Positions 3,030 through 46,492 of a stretch of DNA of 64,000 nt are shown piece by piece. The first letter of the stretch is position 1. The number at the start of each line of letters is the position of its first letter. The position numbers and the translations under genes are program-made. The stretch spans positions 558,001 through 622,000 of the forward strand of contig NZ_JAUHQA010000001.1 of assembly GCF_030418295.1 (NCBI RefSeq), written 5' to 3'. The notes under the pieces were generated by a model. The model made no database searches. It saw only the letters and a list, made by a program, of their open reading frames with translations, and was not told the DNA's origin. This DNA comes from Demequina muriae (GTDB lineage Bacteria > Actinomycetota > Actinomycetes > Actinomycetales > Demequinaceae).

Positions 3030-3908
3030 ATGGACCACGTCGAGGACATCTGGGCCAAGGAGGCCGTCGCATCCGGGATGGCCGTGCTCGACCTCCGCAG
3101 GCTGGGCGAGACCGAGTTCGAGGGCGACTCGCTGCCGATGCCCGGCGGTCGCGCGTACGGCGGGCAGGTGCTCGCGCAGGCGCTCCTGGCCGCCGGTCAC
3201 ACCGTCGACGACGCGCGGCCGATGCACTCGATGCACGGATACTTCCTGCGACCCGGCGACGCGTCGCGCCCCATCACCTTCGAGGTGGAGAACCTGCGCG
3301 ACGGCCGCTCCTTCTCGGCTCGGCGCACCCACGCCTTCCAGGACGGGAAGCCGATCCTGTCGATGATCGCCTCGTTCCAGCTGCCCCAGCACGGGCCAGA
3401 GCACGCCGTGAGCATGCCCGAGGTGCCGGGGCCCGATGCGGTGGTCTCGTCCGTCGACATCCTCGCGCCCTTCGTCGGCGACGCACGGGCGGACTACTGG
3501 CTCAAGCGCACGCCGTTCGACCTGCGCCACGTCGAGGGCTCGCTGCTGCTCCAGCCGGACAAGCGACCCAAGCAGTACCAGACCACCTGGATCCGGCTGC
3601 GCCGGCCGATCGAGGGCTCGGACCTGCTGCACCGCGCGCTGCTGGCGTTCCAGTGCGACCAGGTGATGCTCGAGCCGCTGCTGCGCCGCCACGGCGCGTC
3701 GTGGATGACGCCTGGCCTGAACTTTGCGAGCCTGGACCACGCGATGTGGTGGCACCGCCCCGCTCGCGCCGATGAGTGGCTGCTGTACGTGCAGGACGCT
3801 CCGACGGCCCAGGGTGGCCGCGGTCTCGGCGGCACATGGGTGTTCTCTGAGGACGGACGCCTCGTGGCGTCGGCGTCGCAGGAGGGCATGATCCGCATGC
3901 CGGAGTGA
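3030..3908 (+). CDS. tesB: Acyl-CoA thioesterase II
   Basis: Double-hotdog thioesterase that hydrolyses medium and long acyl-CoA to free acid and CoA. The 292 residues match TesB length. Seen: GGRAYGGQVLAQAL and HSMHGYFLRPGD in the first hotdog; NFASLDHAMWWHRPARADEW with the conserved Asp, then QGGRGLGGTW and a C-terminal ASASQEGMIR in the second. GAGGAG lies 8 nt before the ATG. Third gene of the channel-globin-thioesterase run. Family assignment is firm; physiological substrate unknown. Confidence 0.94.
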   Translation: MDHVEDIWAKEAVASGMAVLDLRRLGETEFEGDSLPMPGGRAYGGQVLAQALLAAGHTVDDARPMHSMHGYFLRPGDASRPITFEVENLRDGRSFSARRTHAFQDGKPILSMIASFQLPQHGPEHAVSMPEVPGPDAVVSSVDILAPFVGDARADYWLKRTPFDLRHVEGSLLLQPDKRPKQYQTTWIRLRRPIEGSDLLHRALLAFQCDQVMLEPLLRRHGASWMTPGLNFASLDHAMWWHRPARADEWLLYVQDAPTAQGGRGLGGTWVFSEDGRLVASASQEGMIRMPE

Positions 3909-4328
3909 CGCCTCCGGAAGGCCTCGTGGCGCGGTGGAGCGACACGGACCGGACTTTTCCGACTCGATCTCAACCCTTTACCAAAACGTGACCATGACCG
4001 ACCGAGGCCATGTTTAGCAGGCATGTTGCCGCCGTACTCAGCCCGCGCATCGGCCCTCCTCCGCCCCACCGTTTGAGATTCCCCCCGCGGGGTTGATAGC
4101 GTCGAGTAGCCGTTTCGGGGTCCGCGTCAGTCGCGACCGAAGCGCCAATGACCAGCCCAGGCCTCATGGCTGCGCCCGAACGTGGAGCGCGCCCTGGCGG
4201 CGAGCGATGGCGACGGCACCACGTCGTTGCCACGCGGGCCCGTGACTGCCGTACGACGGCTGCGAGTCCCCTCGTCCCACCGAGTCCTCCAACGACGCCC
4301 GTGTCACCACGGGGAGCTGAGGTAACGA
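3909..4328 (+). promoter_or_regulatory. 420-base gap upstream of proVWX with candidate promoter
   Basis: No credible gene. A TTGAGA (4073-4078) and TAGCGT (4097-4102) pair with an 18-nt spacer is a plausible sigma-A-like promoter for proV; a CCCCGCGGGG palindrome sits in the spacer. One copy of the GCGCATCGGC motif is at 4045-4054. The long leader (about 220 nt) before the proV start leaves room for RNA-level control, but I recognise no riboswitch. Confidence 0.35.
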
Positions 4329-5603
4329 GTGAACGACAGCATCGCCTTGCGCGCTGACGGACTGTACAAGGTCTTCGGGAAGCATCCCGACGACGCCGTG
4401 CGGCGCCTTCGTGACGGCGCCTCGCGAGACGACCTCGGCGGCGCCACCGCCGCCGTGATCGACGCCTCCTTCGAGGTCAAGCGCGGCGAGATCTTCGTCG
4501 TCATGGGCCTCTCCGGCTCCGGAAAGTCGACCCTGATCCGCACGCTCAACGGCCTTCAGCCGGCGACCGCGGGCACCGTCCAGATCGGCGACGACTCCAT
4601 CACCGACGCGAGCACGTCGCACCTGCGGGACCTGCGGCGCCACCGGGTGTCGATGGTGTTCCAGCACTTCGCGCTGCTCCCCCACCGCACCGTGATCGAC
4701 AACGTCGCGTACGGCCTCGAGATCCAGGGCAAGTCGCGCGACGAGCGCCTGCGTCGGGCCCGCCAGGTCACCGACATCGTGGGCCTGGCCGGCTGGGAGG
4801 AGAAGTTCCCCTCGCAGCTGTCCGGTGGAATGCAGCAGCGCGTGGGCCTCGCCCGGGCGCTCGCCGCGGACACCGACGTGCTGCTCATGGACGAGGCGTT
4901 CTCCGCTCTCGACCCGTTGATCCGGCGCGAGATGCAGGATCAGCTCCTGGAGCTCCAGTCCGAGCTGAACAAGACCATCGTGTTCATCACCCACGACCTC
5001 AACGAGGCCATGTACATCGGCGACCGGATCGCGGTCATGCGTGACGGCCGCATCGTGCAGATCGGCTCGCCCGAGGACATCCTCACCAACCCGGCGAACG
5101 ACTACGTCGAGCAGTTCGTGCAGGACGTGGACCGCACCAAGGTGCTGACCGCCGAGTCGGTCATGCGCAAGCCCCGCGTGGTCATCCACGAGAGCGGAGG
5201 CCCGCACGCCGCCCTCGCCACCATGCGCGACGAGCAGATGTCCGCGGCCTACGTCACCAAGCGCGACCGGACCCTCGTGGGCTGGGTGCGCGACCGCGAC
5301 GTCCTGGACCTGGTGCGCAGCGGCGAGAAGTCGCTCACCCCCGCGATCAAGACCGACCACGGCGCCGTCGGGACGGACACCCCGCTGGCCGACCTGTTCA
5401 TCCCGTCGCTCGAGGCCGCGCTTCCGCTCGGCGTCGCCGACGACCGCGGCCGCCTGGTGGGGGTCATCCCCCGCGTGACCCTGCTCGCCACTCTGGGCGG
5501 TGAGCCCGAGGCCGCATCGTCCGCGATTCCGCGCGTCGACCCGCTGCCCACCTCGGTGGTCGACAAAGTGCTCGGCTCCACCACGACGAAGGGAGGCGTG
5601 TGA
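4329..5603 (+). CDS. proV: Glycine betaine/L-proline ABC importer, ATP-binding protein with CBS domains
   Basis: ATPase that powers uptake of glycine betaine/proline. 424 residues. Walker A GLSGSGKST, Q-loop QHFALLPHRTV, signature LSGGMQQRVGLARAL, Walker B VLLMDEAFSALDP and H-loop ITHDLNEA are all intact. After the nucleotide domain come two CBS repeats (about residues 280-400), the regulatory module used in this family to sense ionic strength or c-di-AMP; which applies here is unknown. GTG start at 4329 with GAGG 6 nt upstream. The stop TGA overlaps the proW ATG by one base, so translation is coupled. Confidence 0.95.
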   Translation: MNDSIALRADGLYKVFGKHPDDAVRRLRDGASRDDLGGATAAVIDASFEVKRGEIFVVMGLSGSGKSTLIRTLNGLQPATAGTVQIGDDSITDASTSHLRDLRRHRVSMVFQHFALLPHRTVIDNVAYGLEIQGKSRDERLRRARQVTDIVGLAGWEEKFPSQLSGGMQQRVGLARALAADTDVLLMDEAFSALDPLIRREMQDQLLELQSELNKTIVFITHDLNEAMYIGDRIAVMRDGRIVQIGSPEDILTNPANDYVEQFVQDVDRTKVLTAESVMRKPRVVIHESGGPHAALATMRDEQMSAAYVTKRDRTLVGWVRDRDVLDLVRSGEKSLTPAIKTDHGAVGTDTPLADLFIPSLEAALPLGVADDRGRLVGVIPRVTLLATLGGEPEAASSAIPRVDPLPTSVVDKVLGSTTTKGGV

Positions 5604-6547
5604 TGGACTTCCGCATCCCCGTCGGCAACTGGATCAATGAGGGTCTCGAGTGGATCGAGATCAACCTCGAAGTCTTCTTCGAAGGCATGCGCTCCACCTT
5701 CAAGGGCATGTATGACGGCATGGACTGGCTGTTCTCCTCGCCGCCTACTCTCGCCATCATCGCGGTTCTCGCGCTCGCGGGATTGTTCGCACGCGGCTGG
5801 AAGTTCGCGATCGGCGTCACCGTGGGCCTGCTGTTCATCGTGAGCGTCGGCCAGTGGGACAACGCGGTCGACACGCTCGCGCTGGTGATCGTCGCCGCGT
5901 TCATCGCCATCGCCCTCTCGATTCCGCTGGGCATCTGGGCCGCGCGCAACGACACCGTGTCCGCGATCCTCAAACCCATCATGGACTTCCTGCAGACGAT
6001 GCCCGCTTTCGTCTACCTCATGCCGGCGCTCGCGCTGCTGCGGGTGGGCGTCGCTCCTGGCATCTTCGCGACCATCCTGTTCGCGATGGCGCCGGGCGTG
6101 CGGCTCACCGAGCTGGGCATCCGTGGCGTGGACAAGGAAGTGGTCGAGGCCGGTCAGGCCTTCGGCGCCTCCCCGCGTCGCATCCTCCGCCAGATCCAGC
6201 TGCCCCTCGCGATGCCGTCGATCATGGCCGGCATCAACCAGATCATCATGCTGTCGCTCTCGATGGTCGTCATCGCCGGCCTCGTCGGCGCGGGCGGCCT
6301 GGGTGGCGACGTCGTGCGGTCGCTGAGCTCGCTCGACTACCCGCTCGGCTTCGAGGCCGGTCTCGCAGTCGTCGTGCTCGCCATCATCCTCGACCGCTTC
6401 ACCGGCTCGTTCGGTCAGGGACTCGGCATGTACGCGTGGCTGCGCAACCGCCACAGTGCGAAGAAGACCGAGGACGAGCTGGCTCGCCTCGAGGCGATGG
6501 CCGCCCAGGACGACGAGCCGCACCTGATGACTGGCGCGAAGGCCTGA
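5603..6547 (+). CDS. proW: Glycine betaine/proline ABC importer, permease
   Basis: Inner-membrane permease of 314 residues. Several hydrophobic segments (first near residues 47-85, a cluster across 85-270) surround the EAA-type coupling loop VVEAGQAFGASPRRILRQIQ that contacts ProV. The N-terminus has a long amphipathic stretch before TM1, as in ProW/OpuAB. Start ATG 5603 has GGGAGG 6 nt upstream and overlaps the proV stop. The binding-protein gene follows after 143 nt containing two hairpins. Confidence 0.94.
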   Translation: MDFRIPVGNWINEGLEWIEINLEVFFEGMRSTFKGMYDGMDWLFSSPPTLAIIAVLALAGLFARGWKFAIGVTVGLLFIVSVGQWDNAVDTLALVIVAAFIAIALSIPLGIWAARNDTVSAILKPIMDFLQTMPAFVYLMPALALLRVGVAPGIFATILFAMAPGVRLTELGIRGVDKEVVEAGQAFGASPRRILRQIQLPLAMPSIMAGINQIIMLSLSMVVIAGLVGAGGLGGDVVRSLSSLDYPLGFEAGLAVVVLAIILDRFTGSFGQGLGMYAWLRNRHSAKKTEDELARLEAMAAQDDEPHLMTGAKA

Positions 6548-6556
6548 CCCCACCCC

Positions 6557-6579
6557 CGCATCGGCGTGATGCCGACGCG
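6557..6579 (+). other. Imperfect hairpin between proW and proX
   Basis: CGCATCGGC and GCCGACGCG form a 9-bp stem with one A/C mismatch around a 5-nt loop. It sits 10 nt after the proW stop and carries the dispersed CGCATCGGC motif. It may act as a partial terminator or mRNA stabiliser that lets proX be expressed at a level different from proVW. Confidence 0.4.
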
Positions 6580-6625
6580 ACCACCACAGACCTCGCGGCC
6601 GTTCCCCCAACGGTCGCGCGCATCG

Positions 6626-6642
6626 GGCCGTACGACACGGCC
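6626..6642 (+). other. Perfect 6-bp hairpin upstream of proX
   Basis: GGCCGT, loop ACGAC, ACGGCC. Second hairpin of the proW-proX gap, about 50 nt before the proX start. Confidence 0.35.
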
Positions 6643-6690
6643 AGGGATGCTCACGGCGGCGGAGATTCCGCACGCTGGGAAAGGAAACAT

Positions 6691-7614
6691 ATGTTCAAGC
6701 GCACTGCCACCGTTTTCGCGGTGACTGCAGCTTCGGGCCTCGTTCTCGCCGGCTGCTCGTCGGCCGATGACGACGCCGCCGAGGAGACCACCGACGGCTC
6801 GACCGCTGCGGGCGAAGAGACTGACGCCGCCGCGGGCGGCGACCTCACGCTGGCCGTCTTCAACGGCTGGGACGAGTCCGTCGCCACCTCCCTCCTGTGG
6901 GAGGCCGTGCTCGAGGAGCAGGGCTACAACGTCGAGCTCGAGTACGCCGACCCGGCCCCGGTCTTCCAGGGCGTGGCGGACGGCGACTACGACATCGTCA
7001 CCGACGTCTGGCTGCCGCTCACGCACGAGTCCTACGTCGAGGAGTTCGGCGACGACATGGAGGAGCTGGGTGCATGGTTCGACTCGGCCGCCCTCACCAT
7101 CGCCGTGAACTCCGATGCTCCCGTCGACACCATCGCGGAGCTCGCTGACAGCGCCGACGAGTTCGACAACCGCATCGTCGGCATCGAGCCCGGTGCCGGC
7201 CTGACCGCCGCCACCGAGGGCGCCATCGAGACCTATGGCCTGGAGGGCATGGAGTTCATCACCTCCTCGACCCCCGCCATGCTGCAGGAGCTCGACACCG
7301 CCACGTCGAACGGCGAGAACATCGTCGTGACGCTGTGGGAGCCGCACTGGGCCTACGGCGCGTACGACATCAAGAACCTCGAGGACCCCGAGGGCGCCAT
7401 GGGCGAGGCCGAGGAGATCGTGACCTACGGTCGCACCGGCATCACCGAGGAGTTCCCTGACGTCGCCGAGTGGTTCAGCAACTTCACGATGGACGCAGAG
7501 CTGCTCTACGACCTCGAGAACAAGCTGAACGACGCCGACGAGTCCGAGTTCGAGACCGTCGTCGCCGACTGGATCGCTGAGAACCAGGAGTGGGTCGACT
7601 CGCTCACCGCGTAA
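6691..7614 (+). CDS. proX: Glycine betaine/proline-binding lipoprotein
   Basis: Solute receptor of the proVWX importer, anchored outside the membrane as a lipoprotein. 307 residues with a signal peptide ending in lipobox LVLAGC (Cys22), an acidic Asp/Glu/Thr linker, then the OpuAC fold. Trp60 (FNGWDES), Trp107 (DVWLPLTHES) and the Trp pair in LWEPHWAY are the expected aromatic cage for the quaternary ammonium group. ATG 6691 is preceded by AAGGA at 5 nt. A strong terminator follows. Order proV-proW-proX is standard. Confidence 0.95.
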   Translation: MFKRTATVFAVTAASGLVLAGCSSADDDAAEETTDGSTAAGEETDAAAGGDLTLAVFNGWDESVATSLLWEAVLEEQGYNVELEYADPAPVFQGVADGDYDIVTDVWLPLTHESYVEEFGDDMEELGAWFDSAALTIAVNSDAPVDTIAELADSADEFDNRIVGIEPGAGLTAATEGAIETYGLEGMEFITSSTPAMLQELDTATSNGENIVVTLWEPHWAYGAYDIKNLEDPEGAMGEAEEIVTYGRTGITEEFPDVAEWFSNFTMDAELLYDLENKLNDADESEFETVVADWIAENQEWVDSLTA

Positions 7615-38114: not shown

Positions 38115-38867
38115 CTAGTCCGCGATGGCGCCGAAGTCCGCCAGGAAGTCCTCGACGAAGTCGTTGGCGGGGCTCTTCGTGACCTCGTCGGGCGTGCCGA
38201 TCTGCTCGATCGCGCCGCCTTCGGAGAACACCGCGATGCGGTCCGCGAGGATCACGGCCTCGCGAATGTCGTGCGTCACCATCATGACAGTGAGGCCCAA
38301 CTGGCGCTGCAGGTCGCGGAACTCCTGCTGAAGGCTGCGGCGACGCTGGGGGTCGACCGCCCCGAAGGGCTCGTCCATCAACAGCACCGGCGGCTCGACC
38401 GCGAGCGCGCGCGCCACGCCCACCCGCTGCCGCTCTCCACCGGACAGCTCGTGGGGATACCGGGCGCCATACGTCGAGTGCGGGAGGCCCACCAGGTCCA
38501 ACAGCTCCTCGACCCGACGGTGCTTGCGCTCCTTGTCCCAGCGCAGCAGGCTCGGCACCGTGGCCACGTTCTGCGCGACCGTCCTGTGGGGGAACAGACC
38601 CACGTGCTGGATCATGTAGCCGATCGACCGCCGCAGCTGCACGGCGTCCTGACTCATGATGTCCGCACCGTCGACCGTGATCGTGCCCGACGTGGGCTCG
38701 ACCAGCCGGTTGACCATTCGGAGGGTGGTCGACTTGCCGCAGCCCGACGGCCCGACCAGGCACATGATCTCTCCGGGCGCGACGTCGAGGCTCAGGTCCT
38801 CGACCGCGACCGTGCCGTCGGGATACTCCTTGCGGACGTGATCGAAGGTGATGCCGGCGTGATCCAT
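38115..38867 (-). CDS. Quaternary ammonium (osmoprotectant) ABC importer ATP-binding protein, OpuBA/OsmV type
   Basis: 250-residue ATPase. Walker A GPSGCGKST, Q-loop MIQHVGLFPHRTVAQNV, signature LSGGERQRVGVARAL, Walker B VLLMDEPFGAVDPQRR, H-loop VTHDIREAVILAD. It lacks the CBS domains of the ProV protein in this window, so its regulation differs. Encoded divergently from its two permeases and receptor, an uncommon split. ATG 38867 has TAGCGT 6 nt upstream on its strand (leaderless). The permeases at 38990-40383 and the receptor at 40516 are its presumed partners. Confidence 0.93.
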   Translation of the reverse strand: MDHAGITFDHVRKEYPDGTVAVEDLSLDVAPGEIMCLVGPSGCGKSTTLRMVNRLVEPTSGTITVDGADIMSQDAVQLRRSIGYMIQHVGLFPHRTVAQNVATVPSLLRWDKERKHRRVEELLDLVGLPHSTYGARYPHELSGGERQRVGVARALAVEPPVLLMDEPFGAVDPQRRRSLQQEFRDLQRQLGLTVMMVTHDIREAVILADRIAVFSEGGAIEQIGTPDEVTKSPANDFVEDFLADFGAIAD

Positions 38868-38989: not shown

Positions 38990-39655
38990 ATGGACGCGCC
39001 CGACAATCCGTGGCTCTCCCTGGATTACCTCGAGCGCAACTGGGACGAGGTGTCGGAGCAGCTCGTCATCCACACCACGCTGACGCTCCAGGCCCTCGCC
39101 ATCGCGTTCGCGATCGCGTTCCCGCTCGCGGTGATCGCCCGCCGCGCGCCACGCCTGTCCTCCCCCATCATGGGCGTGAGCGGGGTGCTCTACACGATCC
39201 CCTCGTTCGCGCTGTTCGGTCTGCTCGCGCCCTTCACCGGCATCGGTCGCACCACGGTGCTGATCGGTCTGGTGGCGTACGCGCTGCTCGTGCTGGTGCG
39301 CAACATCGTGGTGGGGCTGCAGGGGGTGGACCGGGACGTCACCGACGCGGCTCGCGGCATGGGATACACCCCGATGCGGCTGCTCCTGCAGGTGGAGCTC
39401 CCGAACGCGCTGCCGTCGATCATCGCGGGACTGCGCATCGCCGCCGTCAGCACCGTCGCGCTCGTGACCGTCGGCGTGGTCGTGGGCTACGGCGGGCTGG
39501 GCCAGCTGATGTTCCGCGGGCTCCAGTCCGACTACCGCGCGCAGATCATGACGGCGACCCTCCTGTGCCTCGCGCTCGCGCTGGTGCTCGACCTGCTGCT
39601 CGCACTCGCCGGACGGCTGGCGATGCCCTGGGCACGACGGAGGACCGCCGCATGA
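38990..39655 (+). CDS. Osmoprotectant ABC importer permease 1 (OpuBB type)
   Basis: 221-residue permease with about five TM segments (near 28-48, 60-85, 90-110, 150-175, 190-215). The EAA-type loop reads VDRDVTDAARGMGYTPMRLLLQVELP and contacts the ATPase. IPSFALFGLLAPFTGIG is the typical OpuBB/OsmW stretch. ATG 38990 is set by the leaderless promoter. Overlaps the next gene by ATGA. Confidence 0.92.
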   Translation: MDAPDNPWLSLDYLERNWDEVSEQLVIHTTLTLQALAIAFAIAFPLAVIARRAPRLSSPIMGVSGVLYTIPSFALFGLLAPFTGIGRTTVLIGLVAYALLVLVRNIVVGLQGVDRDVTDAARGMGYTPMRLLLQVELPNALPSIIAGLRIAAVSTVALVTVGVVVGYGGLGQLMFRGLQSDYRAQIMTATLLCLALALVLDLLLALAGRLAMPWARRRTAA

Positions 39656-40383
39656 GCACTCTCAGCGAGGCATGGGCCTACCTCACCACCGCCGAGAACT
39701 GGACCGGCGCCAATGGCATCACCACGCCGACGTTCGACGGCGGCTGGAGATTCGCGCAGGACTCGATCATCGCGCTCACCCTCGAACATCTGTGGATGAG
39801 CTTCGCGGCCGTCGCCCTGGCCGTCGTGGTCGCTCTTCCCCTGGGCGTGTTCCTCGGTCACGTCCGCAAGGGCGGCGCCGTCACCGTCGTGACGTCCAAC
39901 GTCAGCCGTGCCGTCCCCACGCTCGCGCTGCTCACGCTCTTCGCCGCGTCGGCCATCGGCTTCGGCAACAACGCCGTCATCCTCGCGGCCGCCATCTTCG
40001 CCTTCCCCCCGATCCTGTCGAACGCGTTCACCGGCATGGCGGACGTGGATCCCGACATCCGCGAGGCGGCGCTCGGCCAGGGCATGACCCGGTTCCAGGT
40101 GGCGACCCGCGTCGAGCTCCCGCTCGCGGTGCCGCTGATCGCCGCCGGGCTGCGGACCGCGGCCGTGCAGACCGTCGCGACGGTCCCGCTCGCGGCCCTC
40201 GTCGCCGGTGGCGGCATGGGCGTGATCATCAACACCGGTCTCGCCACGCAGCGCTACGGCCAGGTGCTCGCCGGGGCCGTGCTGGTCGCTGCGGTCGCGC
40301 TCGTGACCGATGGGGTCATGGCTCGGATCCAGCACGCTGCCACCGCCAAGCCACTGCGCGAAGCCGCCGCCGCGACCGCCTGA
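39652..40383 (+). CDS. Osmoprotectant ABC importer permease 2 (OpuBD type)
   Basis: 243-residue permease. N-terminal soluble segment of 40 residues (contains WTGANGITTPTFDGGW), then five TM segments. Coupling loop VDPDIREAALGQGMTRFQVATRVELP. Start overlaps permease 1 (ATGA). Together the two permeases form the heterodimeric channel used by OpuB/OpuC/OsmF-type systems. A 132-nt gap with promoter-like TAGCCT (40431) and a small hairpin separates it from the receptor gene. Confidence 0.92.
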   Translation: MSTLSEAWAYLTTAENWTGANGITTPTFDGGWRFAQDSIIALTLEHLWMSFAAVALAVVVALPLGVFLGHVRKGGAVTVVTSNVSRAVPTLALLTLFAASAIGFGNNAVILAAAIFAFPPILSNAFTGMADVDPDIREAALGQGMTRFQVATRVELPLAVPLIAAGLRTAAVQTVATVPLAALVAGGGMGVIINTGLATQRYGQVLAGAVLVAAVALVTDGVMARIQHAATAKPLREAAAATA

Positions 40384-40515: not shown

Positions 40516-41517
40516 ATGCGCACCCGCAACGCCACCTTGGCGGCCCTGGCCGTCGCGTCCCTGACTCTCGCCGGTTGTAGTTCTGGCGGCAGTGACGACC
40601 CCACCCCTGACGACTCGACAGCCCCCACCACGGGTGCCTCCGAGCCGGCCACCGCCCAGGAATGCCTCCCGGTTCCCGGGGAGCAGCTCGTGGTGCTCGA
40701 GGACGACATGATGCTGCAGAACTCTGACAACATCATTCCCGCGCTCAACGCCGACGTCGCGACCGACGATGTGCTGGCGGCGCTGGATGCCGTGTCCGCC
40801 GCACTCGACACCGAGGGCCTCATCGAGCTCAACAAGGCCGTCGACATCGACCGCCAGACCTCCGAAGAGGTCGCCGAGGCATGGGTCGACGAGGCCGGGA
40901 TCTCCGTCGAGGAGACCGGAGACGGCTCGAGCATCACCGTGGGCGCCGCGAACTTCACGGAGAACATCACGCTCGCCGAGATCTACGCCGAGGTCCTCGA
41001 CGACGCCGGCTACGAGACCGAGGTGCGCGAGATCGGCAACCGCGAGACGTACCTGCCCGCCCTCACCGGCGGCGAGATCGACATCGTCCCCGAGTACGCC
41101 GCCACCTTCGCGGAGTTCCTCGACGGCGACATCGACAACGTGGTCGCCTCCGGCGACATCGCGGAGACGGTTGCGGCTCTCGAGCCCCTCGCCGAGGAGC
41201 AGGGCCTGGTCGTCGGCGCAGCGGCCGATGCGCAGGATCAGAACGCGTTCGCCGTCACCCAGGGCTTCATCGACGCCTACGGCGTCACCACGCTCTCGGA
41301 GCTCGCCGAATCGTGCGGCCCGATCGTGCTCGGTGGACCGCCCGAGTGCCCCGAGCGCCCGTTCTGCCAGCCGGGCCTCGAGAGCACGTACGGCCTCGAG
41401 GTGGCGGAGTTCCGCGCCCTCGACGCGGGCGGCCCGCTGAGCAAGACCGCGATCACCTCCGGCGAGGTGGCCGTGGGCCTGGTGTTCTCGTCGGACGGCG
41501 CCCTCGCGGCCGGCTGA
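40516..41517 (+). CDS. Osmoprotectant-binding lipoprotein (OsmF/OpuBC family) with permuted domain order
   Basis: 333 residues; lipobox LTLAGC (Cys21) and an Asp/Thr/Pro linker. Residues about 57-130 (LVVLEDDMMLQNSDNIIPAL, then LIELNKAVDIDRQTSEEVAE) look like the C-terminal end of an ordinary OsmF/OpuBC protein. Residues about 139-333 (ITVGAANFTENITLAEIYAE, ETYLPALTGGEIDIVPEYAA, PFCQPGLESTYGLEV, AVGLVFSSDGAL) look like its normal beginning and middle. The chain stops just where LVVLEDD would usually follow, so the order appears circularly permuted. GAGGAG is 5 nt before the ATG. Should serve the divergent ATPase and upstream permeases. The permutation is read by eye and needs structural comparison. 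Confidence 0.88.
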   Translation: MRTRNATLAALAVASLTLAGCSSGGSDDPTPDDSTAPTTGASEPATAQECLPVPGEQLVVLEDDMMLQNSDNIIPALNADVATDDVLAALDAVSAALDTEGLIELNKAVDIDRQTSEEVAEAWVDEAGISVEETGDGSSITVGAANFTENITLAEIYAEVLDDAGYETEVREIGNRETYLPALTGGEIDIVPEYAATFAEFLDGDIDNVVASGDIAETVAALEPLAEEQGLVVGAAADAQDQNAFAVTQGFIDAYGVTTLSELAESCGPIVLGGPPECPERPFCQPGLESTYGLEVAEFRALDAGGPLSKTAITSGEVAVGLVFSSDGALAAG

Positions 41518-41572: not shown

Positions 41573-41648
<76 letters not shown>

Positions 41649-41734: not shown

Positions 41735-44700
41735 TCAGCGCAGTTCCTTGATCCGCTCGAACCACGACGAGATCGCGAGCAGCAGGGTCCCCACCACCGC
41801 GAACGCGACGAGCCGCACCAGCAGGTTCGCCCCGACGACGATCTGCAGCACGGACACCACCACGGCGGTCACGGCGGTGCCCAGGATCGGGGCGAACCAG
41901 CGCAGCCTCACGCCCACGAGCGCCATGACGATCGTGGCGACCACCAGCCCCACGGTGCGTGCCAGCGCGTCAGGCTGGAGCGCGAGGGCGGCGTAGCTGG
42001 GGATCAGCGCGATGGCGAGCCCAGGCGCCAAGGCCGTCAGCGACCGCAGCTGCGGGCGTTCGCGCAGCCACTGGGCGCCGATCAGCAGCAGCGACGCCGC
42101 CGGCACTGCGGTGTACGCCTCGATCACCTGCACGTCGGCGCCCAAGAGAATCAGGGCGGTGCCGAGCGAGGCGGCGGCCGCGCACATCCACGTCGCCCAC
42201 CCGACTCCGACGGACCGCAGCCGCCACCAGCCCACGGCGGCCAGCAGCAGCGCGACGCCCGCCATCTCGACGGAGTCCGCGACCAGCGGGATGGCGACTG
42301 TGATCGCGACGGCGGTGACGGTCACGGTGTCCCGCAGCCGCGAGGCTCTGCCTTCCACGAGCAGCAGCAGCACGGCCATCGCCAGTCCCATCGCGACGGG
42401 AGCGTCGATCGTCTCCATGCCCAGCGCACGCGCACCGGACGCGCCCGCCACGGCGGCGGTGAACGGAGAGACGGCGGCGCCCCAAGTGCGCGCGGCCGTG
42501 CGCCAGCCACGGGCAATCGCGACGGCCACGATGGTGGCGCCCGCGGCGGTCCCCGCGAGTGCGACGTCGGATCCCACGGCCCACAGCAGGCCGATGCCCG
42601 ATGCGGTGACGGCGACGGCCGCTCCCGCACCCAGGCGCCGTCCCCACCACAGCAGCGCAGGTCCCGCGGCGCCGAGCACCGTTGCGGCCCACAGGGGTGG
42701 GAGGGCGGCGGTGCCGACCACCACGAGCGCGAGCGGCATCCAGCCGCGGAACCACGCGAGCTCGCGCCACGCGAGAGCGGTGACGCACGCCGTCGCGAAC
42801 GCACCCACGTGCCACCACGACAGTGCGGCGTCGAAGGTCTCGCCGGTGAGGTGCTCCACCACGGCGGCCCCCGACAGCACGACCGCCGCAATTGCCGCGA
42901 TCCCCACCGCCACGCCGGCAGGGCTCGCCCCGACCCAGAGGGCGGTTCGGACCGTCGCTTTCAGCCGTCGGCCCGCCCACGCCGTCGCCGCGACCAGGAC
43001 CCCCGCGACGCACGCCATTGCGAACGCCGATGCGCCGAGCGCGGGTCCCGCAGCGAACGGCGCCAGCGTCACGAGCGCCACCGCGGGCGGAATCACCTCG
43101 AGGGGCCACCGCCTCCACCCCATGCTCAGCGCCGCCGCCACGCCGATGACGACGAGGAGTCCGCTCACCCACGGAGCGCGCTCGACCCCGATCTGAATCT
43201 CAAGGGCAAAGGTGGACAGGACGGCCCACGCGATGGACCCGCGCCGGGCCGTGGCAGCCACCAGGGCATCGCCCTCCCGCAGCGACCACGCGACGGCGGC
43301 AGCGCCGAGCACAGTGGCGACCACGGGCGTCAGCGCCAGCCGCGTCCCCTCGCCGAGCTCCAGGGCGTCCACGACGACGGAGGTCGCCACGACGACGGCG
43401 GCCACCGTCGCGACCGCGCCCACGACCGCAGCGACACGAGTCTCAACCGAGCCCCGCAGGCACCTTCTCGCGCGGTCCGCCCCCACGATCAGGCCTGCCG
43501 TCAGCGCAAGGGCCCACCACGGCGCACTCAGGTCCAAGTCGGTGCGGCCACCCGCGAGGGACGACGCCGCCGCCACCGCGCCCACGACGGCCGTGCCCAC
43601 GAGTGCGGTCACGAGCGCTGGACTCGCGCCCACGACCGCGGGGAGCCGCCACCGGTCCGGCGCCCTCGTGAATGCCGTCAGCACGAGTGCGGCGCCCCAC
43701 GCCAGCAGCGCCGCGGCTGCGGTGATGCCCTGGTCCTCGCGCAGCGCGAGGGTGGGGCCGACCGCGGTGGCGAGTGCGACGGCCGGCGCCACGGCCGCGC
43801 GAGGCCACCAGCGTGCGGCCACCGCCAGCAGAGCGACCGCCCCAAGACTCAGCACGAGCCCAGGGACCAGCGGCTCGCTGTCATCCGCCAGGCGTCCGAG
43901 AGCGGCGATCCCTCCGAGGGTCACCAGCGCGACAGCGCTGACGCGGGTGAGCCGCCGGGCGAGTCGGTCACGCCACAGGGGCAGCGCCGCGGCGACGCCC
44001 ACTCCGCTCGCCACGACCACGCCGACGGTGGACCAGGGCTCGTCGAGGCGCGTCTGGTCTGCCAGCGCCGCGAGGGCGCCGGGCGCGGCCACGACGGTCA
44101 GCACGGTGCCGAACGGCTCAGCCCGCGCCGCATTGGCTCGCTCCGGTCCGGCGCGCACGGCGGCCAGCGCAAGGGCGGCCGCGAGCGCGGACGCCGCGAC
44201 CCATCCGTCGGGCGTCGCACTGGGCGAATCCACCCACTCGAGCGTCGCGAGGCCGCTCCACACTCCACTGATCGCGCCCCACGCGACGGCTGGCACGAGC
44301 CCGGCCAGCGCGGGCCGCTGCTGGAGCGCCGGGAGTCGTCGCACGAGCCACGCCGCACCGGCCGCGGCCGTGACGGCGATGGCCAGTGCCCCCGTGACGG
44401 ACGCGCCGAGCGCCACACCCAGGGCGGCGATCACCGCGGTCACGAACAGCGTCGCGAGTCCCGTCCCCTGCCACGGCTGCCGGCGGCCGTGCGCGGCGAG
44501 CACCGCCACGGGGACCAGCGCGGCCGCGAGCGACAGCGCCACCGGCAGCTCGACCATCTGGAGACCCCACACCCCGTGGCCCGCCGCCACGACCAGCAGC
44601 ACGATGCCGGCCCACGACGAGATTGCTCGCGCCGCAGGCACCTCCCACAGCCGTCGGGCCACGATGAGCGCGGCGCCGGCGATCGACAGCGCCACCGAGA

Positions 44701-46372
44701 CGGCCGCGTGGATGCTGCGGTCAGGCGTGAGCTCGGCGACGCCGGCGGCGATGACTCCTGCGCCGGTCGCCACCAGCACGGCCCCCACGATCGACGCGGC
44801 CCTGACGCTCCCCGCCAGCACACCGCTGGTCTCGAGCCGCCACAGGCGCAGCATCGCAAGCGACAGTCCGGCGACGAGAGCCGCCGCACCCGCCCACAGG
44901 TCGATGGGCGCGAACCCATCGCCCTGAACGGTGCGCGCCAGCACCACGGTGAGCGCATACCCGACGGTCGCGAGCGCCACCACGGCATAGCCGGGGACGA
45001 GACCGACGAACAGCGCCACCCGCGCAACAGTGCCCAGCCGCAGCCCGGCGATCACTGCGACCGCGCACACGACGGAGAGCACCGCGACCTGCTGCCATGG
45101 CGCTGCGCCCCACGTGAACGCGAGCGCAGGGGCGACCAGAGAGGCGACCACGGCGGTGGCGACGACCGCCGCGCGCGGCCACCAGCGGGCCAAGGCCACG
45201 AGCGCGACGAGCGGGACCAGGCCCGCCACCGCATCGGCCGTCGTGGCGTCGCTCGCCCACGTCCAGAGCGGGACCGAGGCGCCGAGCGCGCACGCCCAGC
45301 CGATCGCCGACCACCGGATGATCGACCGCGCCACGCTCCACGCCCACCACTGAGGCGTGAGCGCGAGCGCGACGGCCACCGCCGTGCCGGTCAAGGCCCA
45401 CGCCCACATGCTGGAGACGATGCTGCCCGCACCCGCATCGGCCGCCTGCGCGGAGGCGGCGATGGTGAGTCCGACGCCAGCCGCCACGAGCGCGAGCGCC
45501 GCGGCGGATCCCACCCACCTCAGCTGCCACCGTGACAGCACGACGCCAGCCCCGCTCGCCAAGAGCAGCGACAGCGGGAGGTCGAACGCGCCCGACGCCG
45601 CGGTGCCGCGCAGGAAGGAGATCCCCGCCGCGCCTGCGAACCCCATGGACACGATGCCGACGGCCCCGCTGGTGATCGGCAGGTGCATGCGACGCAACCA
45701 CACAGCGAGCGCCGCGACCGCGACGGACACGCCGAGCACCGCGAGGCCCCGGGCGAGCGGAGTGAAGGTGGTCCACGCGATCGCGACGAACACGATGGCC
45801 GCGGCGATCATGAGCGAGGCGCCGGCGATGCCGAGCAGCACCGGTGCCGTCAGGACCGCAGCGGCGCGGCTCGCGCGCCGATGCGGCGCGGCCTGCGGCT
45901 GCTGCGTGCGCGGCAGTTCAGAAGGTGGCGTCGCCTGGGCGACCGATGCGGGGGCGGGGCCAGTGCGCACGGTCGGGTCGGTCTCGCGATGGACGAACCC
46001 GGGTGCGTACTCTCGGGCGGCCGCAGGCGCCGGCTCGGCCGATGCGGCAGTGGGCTCGGGCGCAGCCGTGGGGGCGGTGAACGCGGAGGTCGGGATGGGA
46101 CTGACAACGGGCGGGCGCGGAGCGGGTGGTGGACGTTGCGCGACAAGCTGATCCGCGAGCGCCTCGCGGCGCTCGCCCCACTGGGTCCACGTCGAGGCGA
46201 GGGCGTCGTACGACCGCTGACATTGGCGCAGTGCCTCGTCGGCCGCGAGCAGGTCGTCGAACGTTGCCGATCGCAGCGGGACGGCGCACTGCGGGCACCA
46301 CTCCTGTCGCGTGCGATCGACCGGCGTGCCGCACAGTGGGCAGCGCACCGACTCGTGCCCCTCGCGACCCAT
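41735..46372 (-). CDS. Giant polytopic membrane protein, SCO7613 C-terminal domain type
   Basis: 1545 residues. N-terminal zinc ribbon CPLC (11-14) and CPQC (26-29), a helix with LLAADEALRQCQRSYDALA, a Pro/Ala-rich linker of about 90 residues, then some 1350 residues of almost continuous short hydrophobic segments (Ala/Val/Leu/Trp) with RWWPRAA-type cytoplasmic turns that repeat several times, giving probably more than 40 TM helices by internal duplication. Matches the actinobacterial family represented by SCO7613, for which no function is established. ATG 46372 has AGGGGGG 6 nt upstream; a TTG two codons earlier is less likely. The plus-strand frame of 1296 codons inside it is a composition artefact. 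Confidence 0.75.
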   Translation of the reverse strand: MGREGHESVRCPLCGTPVDRTRQEWCPQCAVPLRSATFDDLLAADEALRQCQRSYDALASTWTQWGERREALADQLVAQRPPPAPRPPVVSPIPTSAFTAPTAAPEPTAASAEPAPAAAREYAPGFVHRETDPTVRTGPAPASVAQATPPSELPRTQQPQAAPHRRASRAAAVLTAPVLLGIAGASLMIAAAIVFVAIAWTTFTPLARGLAVLGVSVAVAALAVWLRRMHLPITSGAVGIVSMGFAGAAGISFLRGTAASGAFDLPLSLLLASGAGVVLSRWQLRWVGSAAALALVAAGVGLTIAASAQAADAGAGSIVSSMWAWALTGTAVAVALALTPQWWAWSVARSIIRWSAIGWACALGASVPLWTWASDATTADAVAGLVPLVALVALARWWPRAAVVATAVVASLVAPALAFTWGAAPWQQVAVLSVVCAVAVIAGLRLGTVARVALFVGLVPGYAVVALATVGYALTVVLARTVQGDGFAPIDLWAGAAALVAGLSLAMLRLWRLETSGVLAGSVRAASIVGAVLVATGAGVIAAGVAELTPDRSIHAAVSVALSIAGAALIVARRLWEVPAARAISSWAGIVLLVVAAGHGVWGLQMVELPVALSLAAALVPVAVLAAHGRRQPWQGTGLATLFVTAVIAALGVALGASVTGALAIAVTAAAGAAWLVRRLPALQQRPALAGLVPAVAWGAISGVWSGLATLEWVDSPSATPDGWVAASALAAALALAAVRAGPERANAARAEPFGTVLTVVAAPGALAALADQTRLDEPWSTVGVVVASGVGVAAALPLWRDRLARRLTRVSAVALVTLGGIAALGRLADDSEPLVPGLVLSLGAVALLAVAARWWPRAAVAPAVALATAVGPTLALREDQGITAAAALLAWGAALVLTAFTRAPDRWRLPAVVGASPALVTALVGTAVVGAVAAASSLAGGRTDLDLSAPWWALALTAGLIVGADRARRCLRGSVETRVAAVVGAVATVAAVVVATSVVVDALELGEGTRLALTPVVATVLGAAAVAWSLREGDALVAATARRGSIAWAVLSTFALEIQIGVERAPWVSGLLVVIGVAAALSMGWRRWPLEVIPPAVALVTLAPFAAGPALGASAFAMACVAGVLVAATAWAGRRLKATVRTALWVGASPAGVAVGIAAIAAVVLSGAAVVEHLTGETFDAALSWWHVGAFATACVTALAWRELAWFRGWMPLALVVVGTAALPPLWAATVLGAAGPALLWWGRRLGAGAAVAVTASGIGLLWAVGSDVALAGTAAGATIVAVAIARGWRTAARTWGAAVSPFTAAVAGASGARALGMETIDAPVAMGLAMAVLLLLVEGRASRLRDTVTVTAVAITVAIPLVADSVEMAGVALLLAAVGWWRLRSVGVGWATWMCAAAASLGTALILLGADVQVIEAYTAVPAASLLLIGAQWLRERPQLRSLTALAPGLAIALIPSYAALALQPDALARTVGLVVATIVMALVGVRLRWFAPILGTAVTAVVVSVLQIVVGANLLVRLVAFAVVGTLLLAISSWFERIKELR

Positions 46373-46492
46373 GGCCAACCCCCCTGTTGTACCGCGAGGT
46401 TAGCCAGCGAGCGGCGTCACCACAACGGCCATGGGGATATCTCACCACAGCCACGCGGCCGAGGCGGGAATCCCCCACGCCTGCATCGGCGT

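Follow-up and report, generated by a model that had tools for sequence, protein, structure and literature searches.

The window, i.e., the whole stretch of 64,000 nucleotides of Demequina muriae DNA that was analysed, contains an ABC importer locus whose receptor gene encodes a protein with an unusual chain order. The genes of the importer and the parts of the receptor (P0001) are as follows:

38115..38867, minus strand: ABC ATPase of the importer, divergently transcribed (PF00005, layout)
38990..39655, plus strand: permease 1, BPD_transp_1 (PF00528, layout)
39652..40383, plus strand: permease 2, BPD_transp_1 (PF00528, layout)
40516..41517, plus strand: substrate-binding lipoprotein (333 aa) of an OsmF/OpuBC-like ABC importer, very probably permuted (profile, phmmer and Pfam matches)
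40516..40578, plus strand: lipoprotein signal peptide with lipobox LAGC and lipid-anchored Cys21 (sequence)
40663..40665, plus strand: codon of Cys50, invariant in the permuted proteins and proposed partner of Cys267 (putative disulfide)
40684..40905, plus strand: displaced segment (C-terminal in normal relatives), residues 57-130, LVVLEDD...EVAEAW, at the front of the mature chain (phmmer, profile, Pfam)
40906..40929, plus strand: linker, residues 131-138, connecting the former C- and N-termini (stretch left between the two profile hits)
40930..41514, plus strand: core, residues 139-333, SITVGAANFTEN...VFSSDGALAAG, equivalent to the N-terminal part of normal relatives (Pfam, phmmer, profile)
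41314..41316, plus strand: codon of Cys267, at the cut site used by a second permuted family, CsC (alignment)

The lipobox (LAGC at Cys21) is intact, as the original prediction had stated, and a cysteine at or near residue 21 is also present in permuted relatives. The matching permeases that had been noticed beside the gene are two BPD_transp_1 proteins, which together with the ATPase form the usual layout; lipobox and cognate permease and ATPase genes mark the product as the receptor of an ABC importer. The same arrangement, with the ATPase on the minus strand followed by two permeases and the receptor on the plus strand, surrounds 88 permuted and 21 normally ordered receptors, which suggests that in importers of this kind a normally ordered receptor was exchanged for the permuted one. 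Downstream lie a tRNA-Lys (41573-41648) and, adjoining it on the minus strand, the gene of a very hydrophobic, alanine/valine-rich protein of 1547 aa (41735-46378) with no Pfam match at E 0.001.

The reversed order of the receptor is documented by several comparisons. In phmmer searches against the PDB, positions 201-273 of AfProX correspond to residues 58-129 and positions 7-186 to residues 139-320. The Pfam OpuAC profile (PF04069), whose gathering cut-off of 21.2 bits is passed with 133 bits, is not matched in its own order: profile positions 2-184 are found in residues 139-331, and positions 187-257 in a piece upstream of them within the same 341-aa frame. The NCBIfam OsmF model also matches in two stretches. 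An unbiased test profile of 267 positions, based exclusively on 45 normally ordered actinobacterial relatives, aligned residues 55-124 with model positions 198-267 (E 2.5e-22) and residues 139-332 with positions 1-198 (E 1.7e-73), and its N-terminal match scored 76 bits, whereas none of 2000 shuffles exceeded 12.5 bits. Both pieces are present, complementary and swapped, and none is duplicated. This coverage from 198-267 to 1-198, with nothing lost or doubled, is the signature of a circular permutation, and we regard it as very probable that the Demequina receptor arose by such an event within the OsmF/OpuBC-like branch. The original prediction, according to which the usual last segment comes first (residues 57-130) and the normal start follows at residue 139, was correct to within a few residues by profile and phmmer. 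The chain, which ends with ...VGLVFSSDGALAAG, indeed stops where LVVLEDD would follow, and the normal-order profile detects no further copy of the segment in the core or elsewhere in the chain.

Since Pfam and phmmer report two separate stretches, residues 57-130 might instead be an extra N-terminal domain on a C-terminally truncated receptor. The complementary profile coverage rules against this very improbable reading: what lies at the N-terminus is precisely the segment that the C-terminus lacks, present in a single copy, and in the structural model segment and core align jointly with OpuAC. The designation as an OsmF/OpuBC-type osmolyte receptor, with which the protein was originally introduced, holds for the OsmF/OpuBC-like branch, but the score of 67 bits lies far below the curated cut-off of 400 bits of the OsmF equivalog NF049931, which two normally ordered actinobacterial relatives (93 and 79 bits) likewise miss, and the osmolyte ligand is only presumed.

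Normally ordered proteins such as OsmF/YehZ, AfProX (1SW1), OpuBC/OpuCC and EgtU (PF04069) share the sequence family, the predicted two-lobed fold and the operon partners with the Demequina receptor. Over the core, its identity to normal actinobacterial relatives, some of which are encoded in operons of this type, is 45-54%; they differ in chain order, and 46 of 47 lack Cys267.

The protein is not a single odd case; the segment-core order characterizes a widespread actinobacterial family, with 138 ORFs (123 distinct) among the loci examined. It occurs in most of the Demequina-group genomes searched, in Cellulomonas, Actinotalea, Oerskovia, Promicromonospora, Isoptericola, Myceligenerans and Luteimicrobium, and in Georgenia, Geodermatophilus, Blastococcus, Motilibacter, Micromonospora and Actinoplanes, with identities ranging from 98% to 43%. 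In further families of this order and class, the chain order is normal, with up to 54% identity over the core. We found no support for an assembly or annotation artefact, the probability of which is negligible, given that many genomes, assembled independently and some of them as single contigs, show the same order; an assembly error is thereby excluded. In a wider sample of the phylum, which was restricted to strong matches, no further permuted gene was detected outside the class. A permuted receptor on a contig filed under a Spirochaetaceae MAG (L143) was not counted as a spread beyond the phylum because its G+C content of 71.6% resembles that of the Demequina locus; the contig is probably a mis-binned actinobacterial one. 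In one Demequina genome (G027; L054, about 3825-4830) the permuted gene is frameshifted and split over two frames, and three genomes of the family showed no match to it, which together indicates that the gene is dispensable in some genomes.

In the phylogenetic tree, 20 of the 21 permuted sequences sampled form a clade with a support of 100/98. The divergent permuted sequence L156 branches outside this main clade in the free tree, but its placement is uncertain, and the AU test does not reject a topology that unites it with the other permuted sequences (p 0.758). Trees based on the core and on the segment alone recover the same grouping with the exception of L156. These trees also bear on the possibility that the gene is a fusion between the segment of one paralogue and the core of another. 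The sequences are old and the mechanism is not preserved, which leaves some room for such a scenario, but both parts unite the permuted proteins (apart from L156), and we consider a fusion unlikely; a close relationship between two donors would lie beyond the depth of the trees. The circular permutation of one receptor probably had a single origin in an ancestor of these actinobacteria, via duplication and fusion with subsequent trimming. A duplication intermediate with two segment copies in one receptor ORF was not present among the ORFs examined.

An AlphaFold2 model based on 40 permuted sequences folds as one receptor with good confidence (pLDDT 87.7, pTM 0.81). Sequential aligners restrict the match with OsmF-type structures to residues 138-332 (4nd9: Z 14.7, rmsd 2.3, 193 residues), because the remainder is out of order for these programs. 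The top VIA match is B. subtilis OpuAC (2B4L), a natural circular permutant of the same fold, which covers residues 47-265 in one superposition (Z 16.6, rmsd 4.7, 190 residues). This single superposition argues against a free domain, and the displaced segment appears to pack in the model against the first lobe as it does in OpuAC. The first rank of OpuAC might suggest that the Demequina receptor merely represents the permuted type already known from Bacillus. This is extremely improbable, since the cut points differ and residues 266-333 are left outside the alignment. The OpuAC chain starts with the latter half of lobe II, at the strand that comes after the position of residue 266/267 of the Demequina receptor, whereas the Demequina receptor begins with the C-terminal segment at LVVLEDD. 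Moreover, OpuAC belongs to a different lineage, as it is a glycine-betaine receptor permuted against ProU-type receptors; its residues 3-149 match residues 147-295 of the ProU-type receptor of the window in permuted order.

The OpuAC topology is found in a different set of proteins. A class-wide search revealed two proteins in a third order, with model positions 132-267 followed by 1-131, and this CsC order is represented by 13 distinct proteins from other actinobacteria in three family groups (f45, f49, f36):

L157, L158, L177-L186, L197 and L198: CsC loci encoding OsmF-type receptors

The CsC genes follow an ATPase and two permease genes, and their products resemble the Demequina receptor in their OsmF-type sequence, their lipoprotein nature and the ATPase-permease-permease-receptor operon. 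They differ from it in the cut site, the lack of the Cys50/Cys267 pair and their separate origin. In the best tree, they form one clade (100/100) inside the normal receptors, which is separated from the segment-core clade by a branch with 100/100 support. A single origin of both permutations was rejected, as forcing the two groups together was 125 log-likelihood units worse (AU p 8.7e-6); judged from the sequence trees, the CsC permutation is independent of the segment-core permutation. The CsC model aligns with B. subtilis OpuAC from end to end (247 residues aligned, target 268, Z 18.3, rmsd 3.6), and EgtU-type structures align on it over only about 126 residues. Given the low confidence of this model (pLDDT 68.5), the structural match was used only in combination with the sequence evidence, according to which CsC reproduces the OpuAC topology. 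OpuAC and CsC share the cut site but belong to separate lineages, and they therefore seem to have reached it independently. In L210 (4600-6480), one operon contains a CsC receptor gene and, immediately after it, the gene of a distantly related receptor with normal order. This neighbour was dismissed as the parent of CsC, because the tree identifies it as a distant paralogue.

Two cysteines recur in all 138 permuted ORFs: Cys50 lies in the short region that precedes the segment, and Cys267 lies where the helix in front of the LGG strand ends. Neither varies in the alignment of 40 sequences. At the Cys267 column, a cysteine is present in 123 of 123 distinct permuted proteins, compared with one of 47 normal and none of 13 CsC proteins. 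A second pair, Cys278/Cys284, also occurs in close normal relatives. It has been lost as a pair in L030 and L050, both of which kept Cys50 and Cys267, and this joint loss points to a pairing of 50 with 267 and of 278 with 284. The model shows isolated bridge residues at positions 48 and 267, each with an unspecified partner. Given the established topology of the fold, the cut lies at the return crossing between the lobes; a Cys50-Cys267 bond would thus restore a covalent link between them, which suggests that the putative disulfide replaces the severed inter-lobe peptide.

Our preferred reading, to which we assign a probability of about 0.9 as a whole, is that the locus encodes the lipid-anchored receptor of an OsmF/OpuBC-like ABC importer and that this receptor differs from the usual one by a natural circular permutation. 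A short linker (about residues 131-138) would join the old termini, and the new ones would have opened at the return inter-lobe crossing between ...SSDGAL and LVVLEDD. The receptor would still close on a small solute and dock to the permeases like its normal relatives, with the disulfide presumably tying the new N-terminal arm to the second lobe.

Six residues (Y194, N243, R281, Q68, D71, N72) are conserved in the permuted and normal groups alike, and since they are common to both, the permuted receptor likely binds a ligand of a type similar to that of its normal relatives. This ligand need not be glycine betaine, as the aromatic cage of AfProX is only partly kept. A separate ProU/OpuA-type system with normal order is located elsewhere in the window (4329-7614, plus strand):

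4329-5603, plus strand: ATPase
5600-6547, plus strand: permease
about 6691-7614, plus strand: receptor

Its receptor matches solved glycine-betaine-binding proteins, and this system would be the better glycine betaine candidate.

A 2008 paper (PMC2395249) had already described circular permutation among proteins that bind glycine betaine (2B4L, 1R9L, 1SW1), and the kind of event is hence known, even if the segment-core permutation appears undescribed. The proposal of a new natural permutation in the OsmF branch is consequently supported with respect to its placement in this branch, for which no earlier report was found, but not as a new kind of event. Our literature search, conducted mostly in openly accessible journals, yielded no paper on either of the two permutations in the OsmF branch.

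A more far-reaching proposal, which we offer tentatively and which may well prove wrong, is that this fold has been permuted repeatedly, with two new independent events in the OsmF branch, including one that arrived again at the cut site of OpuAC, and that the conserved Cys50-Cys267 disulfide replaces the severed strand, so that the coupling of the lobes, and perhaps uptake, would be redox-dependent.

Natural circular permutations are mostly seen between proteins that are too diverged to retain the steps. In the present case, the two chain orders occur in receptors with about 50% identity and the same operon, and two separate events with different cut points occurred in one family. Family profiles match the permuted receptors as two pieces and may therefore truncate or misjudge them. 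The permutation sites are natural guides for sensor design, and the family makes it possible to test the tolerance of a cut inter-lobe crossing, the compensation by a disulfide and the restriction of cut sites in a two-lobed receptor.
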